DNA from: a virus
DNA: 29,760 nucleotides
Virus record (IMG/VR): IMGVR_UViG_3300006789_000103
Location: 1-29,760 of that record
Reading direction: 5' to 3' (one strand)
This document shows positions 1,707 through 10,078 of the stretch, piece after piece. The translations under genes were made by a program, and so were the position numbers. The notes under the pieces were generated by a model. That model saw only the letters and a list, made by a program, of their open reading frames with translations. It was not told the origin of the DNA and ran no database searches. The stretch's first letter is position 1; each line of letters begins with the position of its first letter.

Positions 1707-2572
1707 GGCAGGGCGCCTCCGTGGGCTGTGAAGAGGTCGAACAGGTCCCCGTACCAACCACACGATCCCTTGTGGTTGCACTCGGCAGTGTGCCGGCGGT
1801 CGGGATGGATGGGGAACCAGACGGCGGCCCGCTTGCACTGTGGGCAGGCCACCCGCCGGGCCAGGGGAGGCTCACCGTCAACGCGGGCCCCGAGCTGCTT
1901 GGCGAGCTCAAGGCGTGCATAAGGATCGGTCTTGAGCATGGCGGCAAGGGCATAGGCCCTTCGCTTTGGCGTCGTGACATAGAGAGTCGGCCGGGGCACG
2001 GGCTTTGGCTTTGGCCTGGCGAGATCCTCGAGGTGGATGGCCCAAGGGACATCGGTGCCCAGGAATCCACCCGGCGGCCTCCAGCTCTGAGCGTGCCACG
2101 GCGAGGTCGGCGAGCGGATGGCGGGGAGGAAGTACAGGCGCGCGGCGTCCTTGCACTTTCCATCCACGGCCCCGCCCGCGTGTTCGTTTGCCCAGGCCCA
2201 CACGGCGGGCCATTCCCTCGCCTTGATGGGCTCGGCCAAGGGTAGGACGACCCGAAACTTCGGGGTCGCCTCGGTGTGGCTGATCGATGTGTGGAGCATG
2301 CCCGGCCACTCGGACCACCTGAACAGGGCCTCCTCGACGGTGGTGCCTTCGTCATAGTCGAGGACCAGACAACTCACCGCCTCGACGCCAGCCTGGCCTC
2401 GGGTCGTTCCCTCCCGGTAGATCGTGGGACTCCATGCGGCGAGGTCGGGCTTGGGCTTGTCACCTACCACCGTCGGCGTCGTGAGCGTGGCCTCGAGCCT
2501 GTCCCATGACGGCGCACGGGCGTGTGGCTCCCGGGCCCTTGCCGAGGGCCAGATGGACACGGGCCACACCAT
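1703..2572 (-). CDS. Archaeo-eukaryotic-type (AEP) DNA primase
   Basis: This 289-residue protein has the three AEP polymerase motifs: LDYDEG (D72 and D74, metal binding), SISHTEATPKFRVVLPL (residues 96-112, H99 and R107, nucleotide contact) and KDAARLYFLP (D142, third metal ligand). A C-terminal zinc-ribbon-like segment has cysteines at 243, 246, 265 and 271. It should make primers, and possibly extend them, for the helicase encoded directly downstream. The two genes overlap as ATGA. Its start overlaps the methyltransferase stop as TGATG. No family-A, -B or -C DNA polymerase gene was found in the window. Phages often split AEP primase and helicase into two genes like this. The first ~20 residues are low complexity, so a later start is possible. 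Confidence 0.8.
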   Translation of the reverse strand: MVWPVSIWPSARAREPHARAPSWDRLEATLTTPTVVGDKPKPDLAAWSPTIYREGTTRGQAGVEAVSCLVLDYDEGTTVEEALFRWSEWPGMLHTSISHTEATPKFRVVLPLAEPIKAREWPAVWAWANEHAGGAVDGKCKDAARLYFLPAIRSPTSPWHAQSWRPPGGFLGTDVPWAIHLEDLARPKPKPVPRPTLYVTTPKRRAYALAAMLKTDPYARLELAKQLGARVDGEPPLARRVACPQCKRAAVWFPIHPDRRHTAECNHKGSCGWYGDLFDLFTAHGGALP

Positions 2573-3780
2573 CAGACAGCCCGCGTCCTGTTGAACAGGG
2601 GTGCGTCCTCTTCTATTCGGGCACGGGCGATCTCGAGGTAGCGGGCTTCACGCTCGATCCCGATGAAGTCGAACCCCTGGCGGATGGCGGCGATCCCGGT
2701 GGTGCCTGAGCCCATGAAGGGGTCGAGGACCACCCCACCCGGAGGCGTGACCAGGCGGCATAGCCAGGCCATGATCTGGATCGGCTTCACCGTCGGGTGG
2801 ATGTTGTGGATGCCGTTGGGGTTCGGCAGGTGGGCACATCCGGCCTCACGTTCCGAGCGTGACGGCTTGGCGCACTGGTAGATGTTGGCGGGCCACCTTC
2901 CGAGGTGTGACATGGCGACGGACTCGGTGGGCTTCCCGGCGCTTGGGCTGTACTGAACGGGACCACCACACCGGCCACCGCGGCGGATCTCGCCGTGTTC
3001 CTCCTGCGGACCAGGCCACGCGGGATCACCGTAGGCCATGCGGCACCCGTCGATGTTGAGGCCACCCGTGCCCCACTTGAGGACGTTGGCCGCCACTGTG
3101 CCCTCGGGGGGCTTGCGTGCCAGGATGGCGGGCTCCTGGGCGGGCTTGAGAGCCGTGCCCCACCCGTTCCACGTCTTAGCCTCATCTGTGGCTGGGGCTG
3201 TGATCTTCATCACGCCGCCATGGTCAGGGCTGCCACCATAGATCGATCCAGTGTGGGATCCGTAGCTGTCGATCTTCGATATTTCGCCCACCACTTCACG
3301 TTCGGCACCTACGGCCTTGTCGATGCCCTTGGCCACGTCAAAGCTCTTGGGGAAGCCCGACCAATAGAGCCAAGAGATCGTGTCTCGGATGTCAAAGCCT
3401 GCATCCTCGATGCCGGTGGCCATCCGGTGAGCTGTCCGGGTGCTCGAGAAGGACACAAGGTGTCCGCCTGGCTTCAGTATGCGGAAGGCTTCCACCGCCC
3501 AGGACTGGCACCACACGCCAAAGGCTCGGTTGGCTCGGTGGCTTCGGTCGTAGTATCCGGCGCACATCGAAGGGGAGGGCGAGCCATCACCACCCCGGGC
3601 CGCCCCTCGGCCTCGACCGGTCTGGGCCAGAGTTTGGCCGCCCTCGGTGAAGGTGTCCCACGCCTTGCCCATGAAGCCCAGCCCATAGGGCGGGTCACAT
3701 ACAACGGCGTCCACGCTACACGCGGGGAGCTCGGCCATAGCCTCGAGGCAGTCCCCGAGGATGAGGTGGTGGCGCCCCAC
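2572..3780 (-). CDS. Orphan beta-class DNA amino-methyltransferase
   Basis: This 402-residue protein is a site-specific N6-adenine or N4-cytosine methylase. The catalytic DPPY motif (residues 29-32, followed by GLGFMGKAWD) comes first, and the AdoMet-binding DPFMGSGTTG (353-362) lies near the C-terminus. That order defines the beta group. A target-recognition region of about 200 residues lies between them. The start is GTG at 3780, only 3 bp after the preceding stop. No restriction endonuclease lies nearby, so it is probably a solitary phage methylase that protects DNA from host restriction or marks replicating DNA. The recognition sequence cannot be read from the sequence. Confidence 0.9.
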   Translation of the reverse strand: MGRHHLILGDCLEAMAELPACSVDAVVCDPPYGLGFMGKAWDTFTEGGQTLAQTGRGRGAARGGDGSPSPSMCAGYYDRSHRANRAFGVWCQSWAVEAFRILKPGGHLVSFSSTRTAHRMATGIEDAGFDIRDTISWLYWSGFPKSFDVAKGIDKAVGAEREVVGEISKIDSYGSHTGSIYGGSPDHGGVMKITAPATDEAKTWNGWGTALKPAQEPAILARKPPEGTVAANVLKWGTGGLNIDGCRMAYGDPAWPGPQEEHGEIRRGGRCGGPVQYSPSAGKPTESVAMSHLGRWPANIYQCAKPSRSEREAGCAHLPNPNGIHNIHPTVKPIQIMAWLCRLVTPPGGVVLDPFMGSGTTGIAAIRQGFDFIGIEREARYLEIARARIEEDAPLFNRTRAV

Positions 3781-4210: not shown

Positions 4211-4735
4211 TCAGGCGTGCCGGTCGGCGCGTTGCTTGATTGCGTAGAGGGCGAGACACCCCGCATCGGCGAGACCGTCGTGGGGCTTGCGTCGGCGGCC
4301 CCATGTCAGCTCGAGAGCCGGGAGCCTTGAGAGGCTGGTCTCAACGGCCCGCGCTTTTCGATCTGTGCCCTTGGGCATGCTGCCGAAGATCGCCCGGGTC
4401 CATGTGGCCGGGGGCACCAACACAAAAGGAATACCGAGCGCGGAAAGGGCTCCCTCCCAGAGGCCCTGACCACGCCCGGTGGTGAGGATCGAGCTGCGGC
4501 CCTCCATGGGGCGGGCCTGTTGCTTCTCGAGCACGGCGAGAGCGATCCCTCCGCGCGTGTCCTTCACCTCCCGAAGCCAGTCGGCCATCCGGGTCGGCCA
4601 ATAGACGCCCCCGTTGGCATACCCTTCGTCGGGGTGGTTTGCGGCCACCCAATCCACGGGGATCCCGCGGTCATCGAGGGCGACGGCGGCCCCGGTCTTT
4701 CCTGGGTCGATGCCCACGAAGTTGTCGAAACTCAT
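4211..4735 (-). CDS. RuvC-like Holliday-junction/branch nuclease
   Basis: This 174-residue protein has an RNase H-like fold signature. An N-terminal FVGIDPGKTGAAVAL gives the first catalytic Asp (D10). LEKQQARP gives the second acid (E70). KPHDGLADAGCLALY (D153 and D157) gives the last pair. This is the RuvC-type arrangement, and the length matches RuvC (about 170 residues). It probably resolves branched recombination and replication intermediates before packaging. Its ATG overlaps the stop of the XRE gene upstream (ATGA), so it belongs to the first part of the early leftward operon. Confidence 0.8.
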   Translation of the reverse strand: MSFDNFVGIDPGKTGAAVALDDRGIPVDWVAANHPDEGYANGGVYWPTRMADWLREVKDTRGGIALAVLEKQQARPMEGRSSILTTGRGQGLWEGALSALGIPFVLVPPATWTRAIFGSMPKGTDRKARAVETSLSRLPALELTWGRRRKPHDGLADAGCLALYAIKQRADRHA

Positions 4736-4995
4736 TGGCCGGCGCCGGCGTTGAGCTGGACGATGTATCCCGCGGCCATGTAAATCTGTGTCCGTTCTGA
4801 CAGGTCGAGATCCCAGGCTGTGCCGAGCGCATCAAGCGCGACCCGTGGCGGTTTGGTCGCTCCCTGCTCCCAGTTGTGAACGGATGTGCGCGACATCGTT
4901 ACCCCGGCCTCATGGAGCCGCGCGGCCGTCTGGGCCAGGCTGAGCCCGGATTTTGCGCGCAGGCTTTTGAGTAGGTCTGGCAGGGCTGTCGACAT
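4732..4995 (-). CDS. Cro-like XRE-family DNA-binding protein
   Basis: This 87-residue protein is almost entirely an XRE helix-turn-helix domain: LLKSLRAKSGLSLAQTAARLHEAGVTMSRTSVHNWEQGATKPP at about residues 8-50, with the typical SVHNWEQG recognition region. It is the first gene of the early leftward operon and is divergent from a second XRE gene. That position matches Cro in lambdoid switches. A good SD (AAGGAG) precedes the ATG at 4995. The role as a lytic regulator is inferred from size and position. Confidence 0.82.
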   Translation of the reverse strand: MSTALPDLLKSLRAKSGLSLAQTAARLHEAGVTMSRTSVHNWEQGATKPPRVALDALGTAWDLDLSERTQIYMAAGYIVQLNAGAGQ

Positions 4996-5013: not shown

Positions 5014-5043
5014 TGTCTACCGGCTGCGATCCCATTCTGTCAA
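5014..5043 (-). promoter_or_regulatory. Candidate early leftward promoter
   Basis: On the minus strand, a consensus -35 TTGACA (5043-5038) lies 18 bp before TAGACA (5019-5014), a weak -10. Transcription would start near 5007, leaving a very short leader before the SD at about 5005-5000. The -35 is part of the 19-bp element repeated at 6495-6513. This would drive the Cro-like, nuclease and replication genes. Confidence 0.5.
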
Positions 5044-5056
5044 CTATATCTCTACA
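5038..5056. promoter_or_regulatory. Candidate operator, copy A (19-bp shared element)
   Basis: TGTCAACTATATCTCTACA occurs here and, in inverted orientation, at 6495-6513 with no mismatch. Chance recurrence of 19 bases in 30 kb is negligible. Both copies lie in the two divergent control regions of the switch. On one strand the element contains the TTGACA of an early promoter. On the other it contains TATATC, which could act as a -10 towards the CI-like gene with a poor -35, as in repressor-maintenance promoters. Nearby TGTCAAC (5106) and TTGGACA (5058 and 5141) repeats may be further half-sites. Confidence 0.65.
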
Positions 5057-5178
5057 ATTGGACAAAGAGCCCGACGGGTAGCCTTGCAGCTTGTCGCCGT
5101 TTGCTTGTCAACACTTACGGATCGGGGCTGTAAAGAAACATTGGACAGACTGTGGGCGTTGCGGTAGCTTTCTTAGGC

Positions 5179-5571
5179 ATGTCCGAGGTTCATCCCATCA
5201 TTGTCGAGCTTGTCGCGGCGCGGAAACGGGCGGGCATTGCCGCGGCCGAGGTCGCCCGGTGCCTGGGCGTGTCACGTCAGCATGTGTACAACTGGGAGGC
5301 GGGGCGCAACCGGCCCACCCTTGAGACCATGGGCAAATATGCCGAGGTCGTGGGGTGCGTTGTGGTCATGCAGGTCGTCGAAGGTGAGCACGCCCAGACG
5401 ATCGCCGATCTCACACCTGAGAGTTGGGGTCGTGTCCTACGCTATGCGCGGGCTGTGCAGGTACTCGAGCCGGCCGAGCTGCGGGTGGTTGATCTGACTC
5501 TCGCCAGCCTTGTCGACGCATCCGGCACCGGAAAGAAAAACGGCAACGGCAACGGCAACGGCCACAGCTAA
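5179..5571 (+). CDS. CI-like XRE-family repressor (no peptidase domain)
   Basis: This 130-residue protein has an N-terminal XRE helix-turn-helix (VELVAARKRAGIAAAEVARCLGVSRQHVYNWEAGRNRP, about residues 8-41). An unassigned region of about 70 residues follows, then a Gly-Asn tail (GNGNGNGHS). It is transcribed divergently from the Cro-like gene and is the best candidate for the lysogeny repressor. It lacks the LexA/S24 Ser-Lys peptidase domain, so it should not be self-cleaved in an SOS response. An in-frame GTG at 5152 is an alternative start; neither start has a strong SD. The last 4 bp overlap the end of the convergent gene at 5568-5966. Confidence 0.75.
   Translation: MSEVHPIIVELVAARKRAGIAAAEVARCLGVSRQHVYNWEAGRNRPTLETMGKYAEVVGCVVVMQVVEGEHAQTIADLTPESWGRVLRYARAVQVLEPAELRVVDLTLASLVDASGTGKKNGNGNGNGHS
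5539..5562 (+). repeat. Hexanucleotide tandem repeat (AACGGC x4)
   Basis: Four perfect copies of AACGGC lie at the 3' end of the CI-like gene and encode the Asn-Gly run of its tail. Slipped-strand copying could change the tail length in steps of two residues without shifting the frame. Confidence 0.9.
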
Positions 5572-5966
5572 ACGAGACGCATGCCACCCGCGTCGAAGAC
5601 AATCTCAAGGCCAAGGTCTTCCTTGCAGGCCCGCTCAAGCTCGAGGCCCTCGGTCGTCTCCTGGTCCAAGACCTCGAGCATCCCAGCCAGTAGGCCCACC
5701 GCGTCGTCTGTTTCGGTGTGGGGGAATTTCACCTTCTCACCCGCGACCCACCGGGTGGCCGCTTCGGCCACGTCACGGAATCGGGACAGGTCCCCGCGGC
5801 CGGCCAGGTAGTTCTCAAGGTCCACGAGTTCCTCGGGTGAAGCTGTGATAATCCAGGTCGCGAGCTCAGCCCGGCGAGCCACGGAACACTCGAGCACCTC
5901 GACATCGTTGGGCGCGTCGGGAACGTGTGGCACCACGGCCACACCGGGGAATTTGGGCTTCGTCAT
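5568..5966 (-). CDS. Acidic unknown protein, second gene of the prophage-type module
   Basis: This 132-residue protein was not recognised. It starts at an ATG at 5966 that overlaps the stop of the STAS/SEC14-like gene (ATGA), so the two are translationally coupled. It is acidic (runs such as SPEELVDLENYLAGRGDLSRF and LEVLDQETTEGLELERACKEDL) and probably mostly helical, with no membrane segment. Its 3' end overlaps the CI-like gene by 4 bp in convergent orientation. The pair is separated from the lytic genes by a control region of its own. A partner role with the upstream gene product is inferred only from coupling. Confidence 0.65.
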   Translation of the reverse strand: MTKPKFPGVAVVPHVPDAPNDVEVLECSVARRAELATWIITASPEELVDLENYLAGRGDLSRFRDVAEAATRWVAGEKVKFPHTETDDAVGLLAGMLEVLDQETTEGLELERACKEDLGLEIVFDAGGMRLV

Positions 5967-6481
5967 TTTGTCTCCCGGCAAATATTTAACCACGCCACCG
6001 CCAGCTCCGCCGATGAGAACACCCGCACCGGGTACGCGAAGCGCGTTCTACGCATCCAGATCGACGCGCCAATTCGGTGCAGAGGCTTACGAATGATGAT
6101 CGCCATGGCGGTTAGATCGTAGACCTGCTCCACCCGGCGAGTTTCGGCCGTGTCTTTTACGACCCGTTGTGCGTCGACCAAGAGGAGCCGGGGCTTGGCC
6201 GTGGCGGTCAGGGCTTCCTTAACCAGGCCCTGCGCTTGTCGGACATCCCCAAGGGTGAGCGGTGTGCCCTCAATGTGTTTTTGCCCACCCGGCAAAGAAA
6301 CAACGATCCGATCTGATCGCACGTAAACCGACCCGCACGAATTGTGGGCCTCATCGACCAAGCTCACGGGCGCGCCGTCTGGGCCTGGCGTCCGCGCCAC
6401 ATGATCGTCCGCCAGTTCTGCATGTTGGCCACCCTGGACCACTCTGAAATCTGAGCGCGGGCCGCCTGTATCGTCGGACAT
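5963..6481 (-). CDS. STAS/SEC14-like (DUF7793-type) domain protein
   Basis: This 172-residue protein starts at an ATG at 6481 with a clear SD (GGGAGG). The second half resembles small STAS/SEC14-like proteins known from bacterial chromosomes: a beta strand PRLLLVDAQRVV, a helix with TRRVEQVYDLTAMAIIIRKPLHRIGASIW, then FAYPVRVFSSAELAVAWLN. The 'hRhFssxxeAhaWL' ending is the recognisable part. The biochemical role of that family is not established. The first ~60 residues are low in order. It heads a two-gene unit whose promoter region contains an inverted copy of the CI operator-like element only 13 bp before the start codon. This suggests expression from the prophage. The family assignment is from pattern memory and should be tested by profile search. 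Confidence 0.65.
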   Translation of the reverse strand: MSDDTGGPRSDFRVVQGGQHAELADDHVARTPGPDGAPVSLVDEAHNSCGSVYVRSDRIVVSLPGGQKHIEGTPLTLGDVRQAQGLVKEALTATAKPRLLLVDAQRVVKDTAETRRVEQVYDLTAMAIIIRKPLHRIGASIWMRRTRFAYPVRVFSSAELAVAWLNICRETK

Positions 6482-6494
6482 TGTCTGTCCTCCC

Positions 6495-6513
6495 TGTAGA
6501 GATATAGTTGACA
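6495..6513. promoter_or_regulatory. Candidate operator, copy B (19-bp shared element)
   Basis: TGTAGAGATATAGTTGACA is the exact reverse complement of the element at 5038-5056. It lies between the divergent two-gene unit (start 6481) and the recombination operon (start 6605). Next to it, GGACATTGTCTGTCC (6477-6491) is an inverted repeat of GGACA. The same word recurs near copy A and in the 61-356 cluster. Confidence 0.65.
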
Positions 6514-6536: not shown

Positions 6537-6604
6537 CAAAACTCGACAAGGATGTCATAGCACATCTGTACACCAAAGATGGACAAAACAAATTGGGCAG
6601 CCCG

Positions 6605-7342
6605 ATGAAGCCAAGCGACCGCCAAGATCAAACCCGACCCGATCCCATCAGGTGGGGCGCTTTGGCCGCTCCCTTTGATCCTTTCGATCTCCAATGGAGG
6701 GTCGGCCACAAGACCAAGGACGGCACCCGCGTCCAGCTCCTGGCCTATGTGACGAACCGGGCCGTGATGGATCGTTTCGATCAGGTGGTCGGGCCCGGAC
6801 GGTGGGGCAATGAATTCCGGCCCAATCCTTTGGGTGGTTTGCTGTGCGGCATCTGGGTCGAGGTAAATGGCCGCCAGGTCTGGAAGTGGGACGGGGCCGA
6901 GGCGACCAAGGTTGAGCCCGTCAAGGGTGGGCTGTCCGACTCCATGAAGAGGGCCGCCGTCCAATGGGGGATCGGTCGCTACCTCTACAAGCTCGACACC
7001 CCATGGGTCGAGCTCCGCGAAGGGTACGGGCGCGGCCGGTCTGTCAACGTCAAGACAATGAACGGCATGACCCACGCCATCCCGCCGACTTTGCCCGCCT
7101 GGGCGATTCCCGGGGCGGAGGCTGCCGGCCCATTCGTGCCGCCGACTCCCGAAGCTTTCCGCCTCGAGCTGGCCGGACAACTCCGACAAGAGGCTTGGAC
7201 CACCAACCAGATCCACGCCCTCCTCGCCTCGCACGGCGTGAAGAGGGCGATCGAATTGGACGCGGCCAAACGGGCGCACGCCATGACCACGATCACAACC
7301 ACCAACGGCGCGGCATGGACCGCGAACCAGGGAGCAACATGA
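6605..7342 (+). CDS. Rad52/Rad22-type single-strand annealing protein
   Basis: This 245-residue recombinase should anneal complementary single strands during phage recombination. The N-terminal half carries the Rad52/22 pattern: FDLQWRVGHKTKDGTRVQLLAYVTNRAVMDRFDQVVGPGRWGNEF, then WKWDGAEATKVEPVKGGLSDSMKRAAVQWGIGRYLY. The latter is a strong signature of phage Rad52-like annealases. The C-terminal ~90 residues are a linker plus a small helical tail. The ATG at 6605 is preferred over an in-frame TTG at 6593; SD signals are weak for both. The gene for its usual partner, SSB, follows with an ATGA overlap. It is the first gene of the rightward operon. Confidence 0.88.
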   Translation: MKPSDRQDQTRPDPIRWGALAAPFDPFDLQWRVGHKTKDGTRVQLLAYVTNRAVMDRFDQVVGPGRWGNEFRPNPLGGLLCGIWVEVNGRQVWKWDGAEATKVEPVKGGLSDSMKRAAVQWGIGRYLYKLDTPWVELREGYGRGRSVNVKTMNGMTHAIPPTLPAWAIPGAEAAGPFVPPTPEAFRLELAGQLRQEAWTTNQIHALLASHGVKRAIELDAAKRAHAMTTITTTNGAAWTANQGAT

Positions 7343-8700: not shown

Positions 8701-8949
8701 ATGGCCCTATTAAAAGAACGCCCCATTGGCCTCGGTCCTTGTGATCTGCTCAGCATGTCCGAGGTCGCCAAGGTCCTCCGCATCCGAGAGCCCGACGCGC
8801 GCCGGTTCTGTAAGGAGCACGGCATCATTCGGTACTTTGCCGGGCGCCCGCGCGTGGCCGCTGGCGAGCTCCTCGAGGCTGGGCGGCACCACAAAGTGGC
8901 AAAGCCTAAGCCCGTCGCGGTAGATGATGGGGAGTGGCTCGACCTATGA
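8701..8949 (+). CDS. Excisionase-like helix-turn-helix protein
   Basis: This 82-residue protein has an N-terminal MerR/excisionase-type winged helix pattern: LSMSEVAKVLRIREPDARRFCKEHGIIRYFAGRPRVAAGELLEA (about residues 17-60), in which SEVAKVL and the wing RPRV are the key elements. It lies 19 bp before the integrase gene in the same direction, the usual place for a recombination directionality factor. It has a good SD (GAGGTGAT). A plain transcription regulator is the alternative. Sequence alone does not prove excisionase activity. Confidence 0.65.
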   Translation: MALLKERPIGLGPCDLLSMSEVAKVLRIREPDARRFCKEHGIIRYFAGRPRVAAGELLEAGRHHKVAKPKPVAVDDGEWLDL

Positions 8950-8968
8950 CCGAGCCACGGGAGCACAC

Positions 8969-10078
8969 ATGACCAAGAAGCCGACCCTTCGGGTGGGGGA
9001 CGTGCGCCTGCGCGCCACCGCCGGGCCCGACATGGACGGGCGCTATCGCTGGCGTGCCGAATGGTATGAGGAGAAGACATCTAAGCAAAGGACCCGAGCC
9101 CTGGGGTGGGCCACGTCCCGCGACGCCCTCGACAAGGCCGAGCGGTTCACCCGCGACGCGCCGATGGGTCCCGCAACGGGCCAAGAGGTGGTCACCCTCC
9201 GCGATCTGTTGTCTCGACACATGGGCGCCTATCAAAAACGCGCGGACCTGTCGCCGGTCACCCGGCGGAATCGGGTGTGCAACGCGCGCCGCCTGGCCCG
9301 GGAGCTCGGTGCCGTCCGGGTTGAGCGGTTCAACATCGGCGTTCTCGAGGACTACCGGGATCGGATGCTCCGGGCTGGCCTGTCGACGGGCACCGTCCTC
9401 CTCGACAAGAAGGTCTTGGGGGAGGCTTGGGAGTATGGCCGCCGGATGGGGTGGACACCAGATCGCCCGATGCCCAAGCTCAAGCTCAAGCACAAGGCGG
9501 TGCGCGAGAAGTACACGCCCACCCCGGCCGAGGTGCGGGCGATGGCCTCATATATGGAAGAGCCACACCGCACCGGCTTTGTTCTTCTCGCCTCCACCGG
9601 GTGCCGGATCGGGGAGGTGGTGGGCTTGACCTGGGACCGCGTGGATCTCGAGGGCGGGTGGCTGGTGGTCCAGGGGAAGACCGGCCGCCGGGATGTCCCG
9701 ATCATGGGCGGCCTTGGCTATGTCCTCGAGGAGCACCACCGTAAGGTCGGATCGCCGGTAGCCGGGCACATCTTCGGCAAGCCCGTGAACGCGGACAAGG
9801 CGATCAGGCTCGCCATCACCCGGGCATGCAAGAAGCTCGGAATCACCCACTTCTCGCCCAATGGGCTCCGACGCTACGCCGTCGATGAGATGGCCCGCGC
9901 GGGTGTCGACCCGTACAACGCTGCCGCCTTCACTGGACACAGCCCGTCCGTGATGATGCGCTACTACCGCCAAGCCACCCGGGAGGACCTGCGCAGCGTG
10001 GCGAAGTCGGCCGGGCTGGGCCTGTTGACCGGGAGCACCCAGGTCCTCAAGCTGCCCGACCGACGCGGCAAGGGGTAG
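8969..10078 (+). CDS. int: Tyrosine-family site-specific integrase
   Basis: This 369-residue recombinase should insert and excise the prophage. An N-terminal arm-binding region is followed by a SAM-like core-binding domain (about 75-165) and the catalytic domain (185-355). Catalytic residues are R213 (STGCRIGEVVGL), K237 (GKTG), R301 (NGLRRYAVDEM), H324 (FTGHS) and the nucleophile Y332 or Y333 (MMRYYRQAT). The usual first histidine of HxLR is Asn298 here. The ATG at 8969 has a GGGAG SD. In-frame ATGs at 8924 and 8927 lie inside the preceding gene and were not chosen. The candidate attP follows directly. Confidence 0.93.
   Translation: MTKKPTLRVGDVRLRATAGPDMDGRYRWRAEWYEEKTSKQRTRALGWATSRDALDKAERFTRDAPMGPATGQEVVTLRDLLSRHMGAYQKRADLSPVTRRNRVCNARRLARELGAVRVERFNIGVLEDYRDRMLRAGLSTGTVLLDKKVLGEAWEYGRRMGWTPDRPMPKLKLKHKAVREKYTPTPAEVRAMASYMEEPHRTGFVLLASTGCRIGEVVGLTWDRVDLEGGWLVVQGKTGRRDVPIMGGLGYVLEEHHRKVGSPVAGHIFGKPVNADKAIRLAITRACKKLGITHFSPNGLRRYAVDEMARAGVDPYNAAAFTGHSPSVMMRYYRQATREDLRSVAKSAGLGLLTGSTQVLKLPDRRGKG

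Follow-up and report, generated by a model that had tools for sequence, protein, structure and literature searches.

A pair of overlapping genes in the immunity region of a temperate phage appears to couple a protein of the DUF7793 family to a small acidic protein that probably carries a divergent HAMP-like segment lying below the detection limit of Pfam. We tentatively take this pair, at somewhat less than an even chance, to derive from a DUF7793-histidine-kinase operon, to be carried by the phage without the kinase and possibly to modulate a host kinase under the lysogeny switch. This reading is proposed because family, kinase context and layout agree: the first gene encodes a DUF7793 protein, the two genes overlap by 4 nt, and the second product probably starts in a HAMP-like manner and is without PAS and kinase domains.

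The window analyzed here (29,760 nt) is one whole IMG/VR record, IMGVR_UViG_3300006789_000103. Family searches identified integrase, terminase and capsid genes, indicating a temperate tailed phage, with a RuvC-methylase-primase-helicase operon on the minus strand and an Erf-SSB-Gp157-integrase operon on the plus strand. The immunity region consists of two divergent promoter gaps between which the gene pair and a regulator gene, X3, face each other. Gene 1 (5963-6481, minus strand, 172 amino acids) and gene 2 (5568-5966, minus strand, 132 amino acids) are joined by an ATGA overlap (5963-5966, minus strand) between the stop codon of gene 1 and the start codon of gene 2. Gene 2 is convergent with X3 (5179-5571, plus strand), which encodes a CI-like regulator of the XRE family (HTH_3, E 1e-10). 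The 3' ends of the two genes share 4 bp, and a search for a terminator-like site at this junction found none. The pair diverges from the recombination operon of Erf, SSB and Gp157, the first gene of which encodes an Erf-like annealing protein (6605-7342, plus strand; phrog_1097, E 1e-54). On the other side of X3, a small XRE-family protein in a Cro-like position, X2 (4732-4995, minus strand; HTH_31, E 2e-10), heads the RuvC/methylase/primase/helicase operon. An earlier note made from the sequence had described two minus-strand genes coupled by ATGA, converging on a CI-like gene, diverging from the recombination operon and located at the lysogeny switch, and each part of this description was borne out, the pair lying inside the immunity region among shared operator sites. 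The C terminus of X3 (5530-5571) is a Gly-Asn repeat tail, NGNGNGNGHS, which reads NGNGS in the homolog from a second phage.

This second phage, represented by contig L005, has the block in the same gene order (Gp157, SSB, Erf, gene 1, gene 2, X3, X2, RuvC, primase, helicase), so that the location near the repressor is conserved. Its terminase shares 76% identity with that of the window, Erf 72 to 73%, X2 57%, X3 50%, gene 2 50% and gene 1 42%. The ATGA junction (L005 2704-2707) and the convergence on X3 are both kept. Because the two proteins are conserved at these levels while the third codon positions of the pair are only 36 to 39% identical (i.e., synonymous sites are saturated), the comparison indicates that both reading frames are real and under selection and that the pair is a selected unit. 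The DNA methyltransferase gene of the window (2572-3780) is missing from the syntenic position in L005.

The regulatory sites around the pair were examined next to those of L005. The 19-mer TGTAGAGATATAGTTGACA occurs exactly twice in the window, at 5038-5056 (minus strand; O_X2) and 6495-6513 (plus strand; O_erf), where shuffled sequences give an expectation of 0, and it ends in TTGACA, which is usable as the -35 box of outward promoters for X2 and erf. At O_X2 this hexamer is followed by N18 and TAGACA, and at O_erf, 13 to 31 nt upstream of the gene 1 ATG, by N17 and TAAAAA in the direction of erf. L005 carries diverged copies of the element at the corresponding positions, 3521-3539, with the same N18 and TAGACA, and 2169-2187, followed by TAGATG. 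As predicted from both phages, the element is the operator/-35 box of outward early promoters. A matrix built from four L005 sites was scanned over the 29.8-kb window, and its four best sites (5129, 6495, 5038 and 6567, with the next different site 5 bits lower) all fall within the gaps on either side of the block of X3 and the pair. The top site is the operator-like sequence TGTAAAGAAACATTGGACA (O_X3; 5129-5147, plus strand), followed by N17 and TAGCTT, and the fourth best genome-wide is TGTACACCAAAGATGGACA (O4; 6567-6585), located between gene 1 and erf at a spacing from O_erf of 72 bp in the window and 69 bp in L005. Taken alone, the matrix is not overwhelming, as one site scoring as well as the fourth appeared in 29 of 200 shuffles; its weight derives from the fact that in both phages the sites cluster in two intergenic gaps. 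The L005 sites were initially chosen by eye, so the test is not fully independent. In the reverse direction, a matrix of the window sites ranked the L005 sites second to fifth, with an unrelated site first.

The earlier note had placed the 19-bp element in front of the repressor, with an inverted copy in the promoter region of the pair. The inverted copy is exact; the first copy, which is flanked by the two XRE genes, is the promoter/operator of X2 rather than of the CI-like X3, which has its own diverged copy at O_X3. The predicted -10 box of X3 (TAGCTT) ends 8 nt before the ATG, and the equivalent place in L005 (3466-3484) reads TTGACA-N16-TAGGAT, so transcription may start at or beside the ATG (window 5165-5179) and the X3 message may be leaderless in both phages.

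A weak maintenance-type promoter for the pair had also been proposed on the strand opposite to the element. No sigma-70-like site was found there, and such a promoter is not conserved, because the homologous erf element of L005, itself the predicted -35/operator of an outward erf promoter, overlaps or follows the gene 1 start codon. A search for a sigma-70 promoter of the gene pair recognized none. The 20-nt sequence TGTACAGATGTGCTATGACA was considered as an operator of gene 1 and was dropped, as the matrix preferred 6567-6585; neither yields a convincing gene 1 promoter. From these positions, in both phages a regulator bound at O_erf would cover the leader or the start of gene 1.

This arrangement bears on a different explanation, in which the two genes are themselves part of the switch and form an early, anti-immunity operon whose antisense transcript into X3, or whose proteins, or both, antagonize X3. 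The terminator-free convergent overlap of 4 bp is kept in both phages, the immunity genes diverge together, and with O_erf on the gene 1 leader the pair would be off when erf is off, all of which would suit such a role. However, the search gave no promoter from which the transcript could originate, and nothing about DUF7793 suggests binding to a repressor; we consider this explanation unlikely.

The immunity-region position also invites comparison with superinfection exclusion, a type of function that the earlier note had raised. In lambda, rexAB sits within the immunity region, and the pair could by analogy be a prophage-expressed, functionally RexAB-like exclusion system. Like lambda RexAB and the RexAB-type systems that have been described (PMC12894663), it consists of two small genes beside the repressor in the immunity region. 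However, it shows no sequence match to RexAB, and PADLOC matches neither the gene 1 nor the gene 2 protein. No membrane partner was seen, in that neither protein has a long hydrophobic stretch like that of the membrane effector RexB. The pair is convergent with X3 instead of lying downstream in the repressor operon, and would not be cotranscribed with the repressor. No positive evidence for exclusion was found, the context points to host histidine-kinase signaling, and we regard an exclusion function as highly doubtful. Another accessory immunity-region product is Hex of phage 434, which is translated from the PRM transcript, protects the repressor from RecA and affects lysogen stability (PMC3564112). 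The pair differs from Hex in being without a PRM-transcript arrangement and without homology.

Profile searches, which had been suggested for both proteins, gave a family for the first and weak HAMP signal only for the second. By homology, gene 1 is a DUF7793 protein with a STAS-like (SpoIIAA-like) fold, in agreement with the STAS-like character claimed for it from sequence inspection. It matches DUF7793 (PF25056) at 31.5 bits, above the gathering cutoff of 26 (33.4 bits for the L005 homolog), matches a hidden Markov model (HMM) of 30 Myxococcota DUF7793 members at E 8e-20 and is aligned to the family by hhalign at 99%. Its N terminus is a phage-specific extension of about 50 to 70 amino acids. 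With a profile in which cellular DUF7793 members predominate, the solved protein 3BL4 was matched at E 1e-25, and STAS domains of RsbR gave weak matches. As to the phosphorylatable Ser/Thr that SpoIIAA-type anti-sigma antagonists have after the second core strand, inspection by eye showed no DSSG-like motif; T111 is common to both phage proteins and is not fixed in cellular DUF7793. DUF7793 was named in no paper of the literature searched.

The STAS-type fold, known here by homology, and the RsbR matches could be taken to mean that the pair is an accessory element (a moron) tuning lysogen physiology through a role of STAS proteins outside kinase signaling, such as anti-sigma partner switching or lipid binding, the latter recalling the CRAL-TRIO-like structures reported for SpoIIAA-like proteins (PMC2954212). 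The match of gene 1 to the SpoIIAA-like family (PF11964) is, however, below the cutoff (17.6 bits against 25), and the kinase-operon context of the family points elsewhere, making this role quite improbable.

That context was seen in the Myxococcota, where DUF7793 is present in 38 of 379 genomes. Among the 30 best loci, a DUF7793 gene lies directly upstream of a same-strand histidine-kinase gene in 15, although some loci are mutually related and these couplings are not 15 independent events; the other half of the 30 DUF7793 genes are without an adjacent kinase. A start codon is available exactly at a 4-nt overlap in 7 of the 15 junctions, and in most of the remainder possible start codons lie only a few bases away. 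Across 20 nine-kilobase DUF7793 loci, all 12 of the kinases found abut the DUF7793 gene. Pfam confirmed HisKA, HATPase, PAS and receiver domains in the coupled kinases, and at one locus (L109) DUF7793 is fused to the N terminus of a PAS-HATPase kinase. The best BLAST match of gene 1 (L077) is itself a DUF7793 gene directly preceding a kinase. Most of the coupled kinases begin with ...LASGDF.ARxP...DD.DAL..GLNMLAEEL..., and with a HAMP profile 9 of 15 kinase N-terminal segments outscored every one of their 200 shuffles. Quite apart from the phage, this tight association of Myxococcota DUF7793 genes with histidine kinases that start in a HAMP-like manner offers a usable clue to the function of the family. 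Tandem DUF7793 genes occur at some of the kinase-coupled loci.

Gene 2 had been called an acidic unknown, which proved apt: inspected by eye, it is acidic, mostly helical and without a long hydrophobic stretch, and profile searches returned no family match. The Pfam HAMP model (PF00672) did not match gene 2 or its L005 homolog at E <= 10. A two-sequence profile of the two proteins searched against the PDB gave as its best match the HAMP domain of AF1503 (E 0.011), and most of the weak matches were HAMPs. Applied to 19 DUF7793-associated kinases, this profile placed the L084 kinase first, by its N-terminal segment, and the L092 kinase second, by its HAMP. On a pooled set of 18 HAMP domains and 15 kinase segments, its scores exceeded those of shuffles (p 8e-7). 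Roughly half of the 18 HAMPs share one register in their alignment to gene 2 residues of about 61 to 104. Of 60 column-permuted gene 2 profiles, none reached the real mean or maximum. Run in the opposite direction, with a HAMP profile searched against gene 2, the test was not significant for the window protein, and the L005 partner scored above its own shuffles, a result that is only suggestive; a profile of the kinase N-terminal segments did not recognize gene 2. Taken from these sequence comparisons, residues of about 61 to 104 of gene 2 are probably a divergent HAMP-like segment. AlphaFold models from the two-sequence alignments were poor, and their Foldseek matches were meaningless.

The phage pair and the cellular DUF7793-kinase operons share the DUF7793 gene in first place, coupling of the ATGA/GTGA type and a next product with a HAMP-like segment. 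They differ in that the phage pair is without PAS, HisKA and HATPase domains, its DUF7793 protein has the N-terminal extension, and it sits in a phage immunity region. We hypothesize that gene 2, a small protein with a HAMP-like stretch, fills the kinase slot of a DUF7793 operon; that DUF7793 and the HAMP-like helices would bind each other; and that the phage proteins would then act on a host DUF7793-type histidine kinase, modulating it or serving as a decoy. As the pair lies between the lysogeny-switch operators, the same XRE regulator could control synthesis of this modulator, and the purpose might be to tune host signaling, or the signaling state of the host might bear on the outcome of lysis versus lysogeny. 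Soluble HAMP proteins are found in the same bacterial group: FrzCD of Myxococcus (PMC12077210), like gene 2, has a HAMP module or modules without a membrane anchor, whereas gene 2 is without a chemoreceptor signaling domain. The kinase-less-operon reading can be extended to a phage that gates or informs its lysis-lysogeny decision through host two-component signaling, by means of a captured DUF7793 protein that docks on host histidine kinases together with its stand-alone HAMP-like partner; this would also be the first functional assignment of DUF7793, as a kinase-operon partner. This larger claim is speculative, and we rate it as improbable; if true, phage lysogeny control would be joined to bacterial two-component signaling through a family without an assigned function.

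The pair is rare in the collections searched. When gene 1, RuvC and gene 2 were used as queries in alignment scans, L005 was the sole contig returned, and beyond the window phage and L005 the pair was found neither in IMG/VR by these scans nor in 50,697 phage records. Scans for close relatives with gene 1 alone and gene 2 alone gave no matches, nor did Erf and the exact 19-mer as queries against viral contigs, gene 1 against a plasmid collection or a cellular DUF7793 protein against phage records. A recurrence of the pair near repressors, which the earlier note had proposed looking for, was thus seen in one second phage with the whole block and nowhere else in these collections. Its suggestion that the system is undescribed stands as far as the collections and literature searched show, as searches of families, PADLOC, phages and plasmids gave no match that describes it. 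Gene 2 matches in Myxococcota chromosomes were rejected as out-of-frame noise.

Relatives of the window terminase were found in 28 viral contigs and in two contigs of bacterial metagenome-assembled genomes (MAGs), both of which assign to Myxococcota. Because of these two MAG contigs, the basis for the assignment, the host phylum is likely to be Myxococcota. One of them, L042, has a related integrase (3-1319) in addition to its terminase relative, and the small HTH gene in front of this integrase is the one found in the window (8701-10078). The early region of L042 is unlike that of the window. Early regions also differ from the window's in the more distant terminase relatives, in which methylase genes lie immediately upstream of the terminase. 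The window phage is apparently present in a second metagenome, as an 11.6-kb contig (IMGVR_UViG_3300025103_003681; L003) encodes structural proteins that are 100% identical to those of the window, along with an identical terminase.
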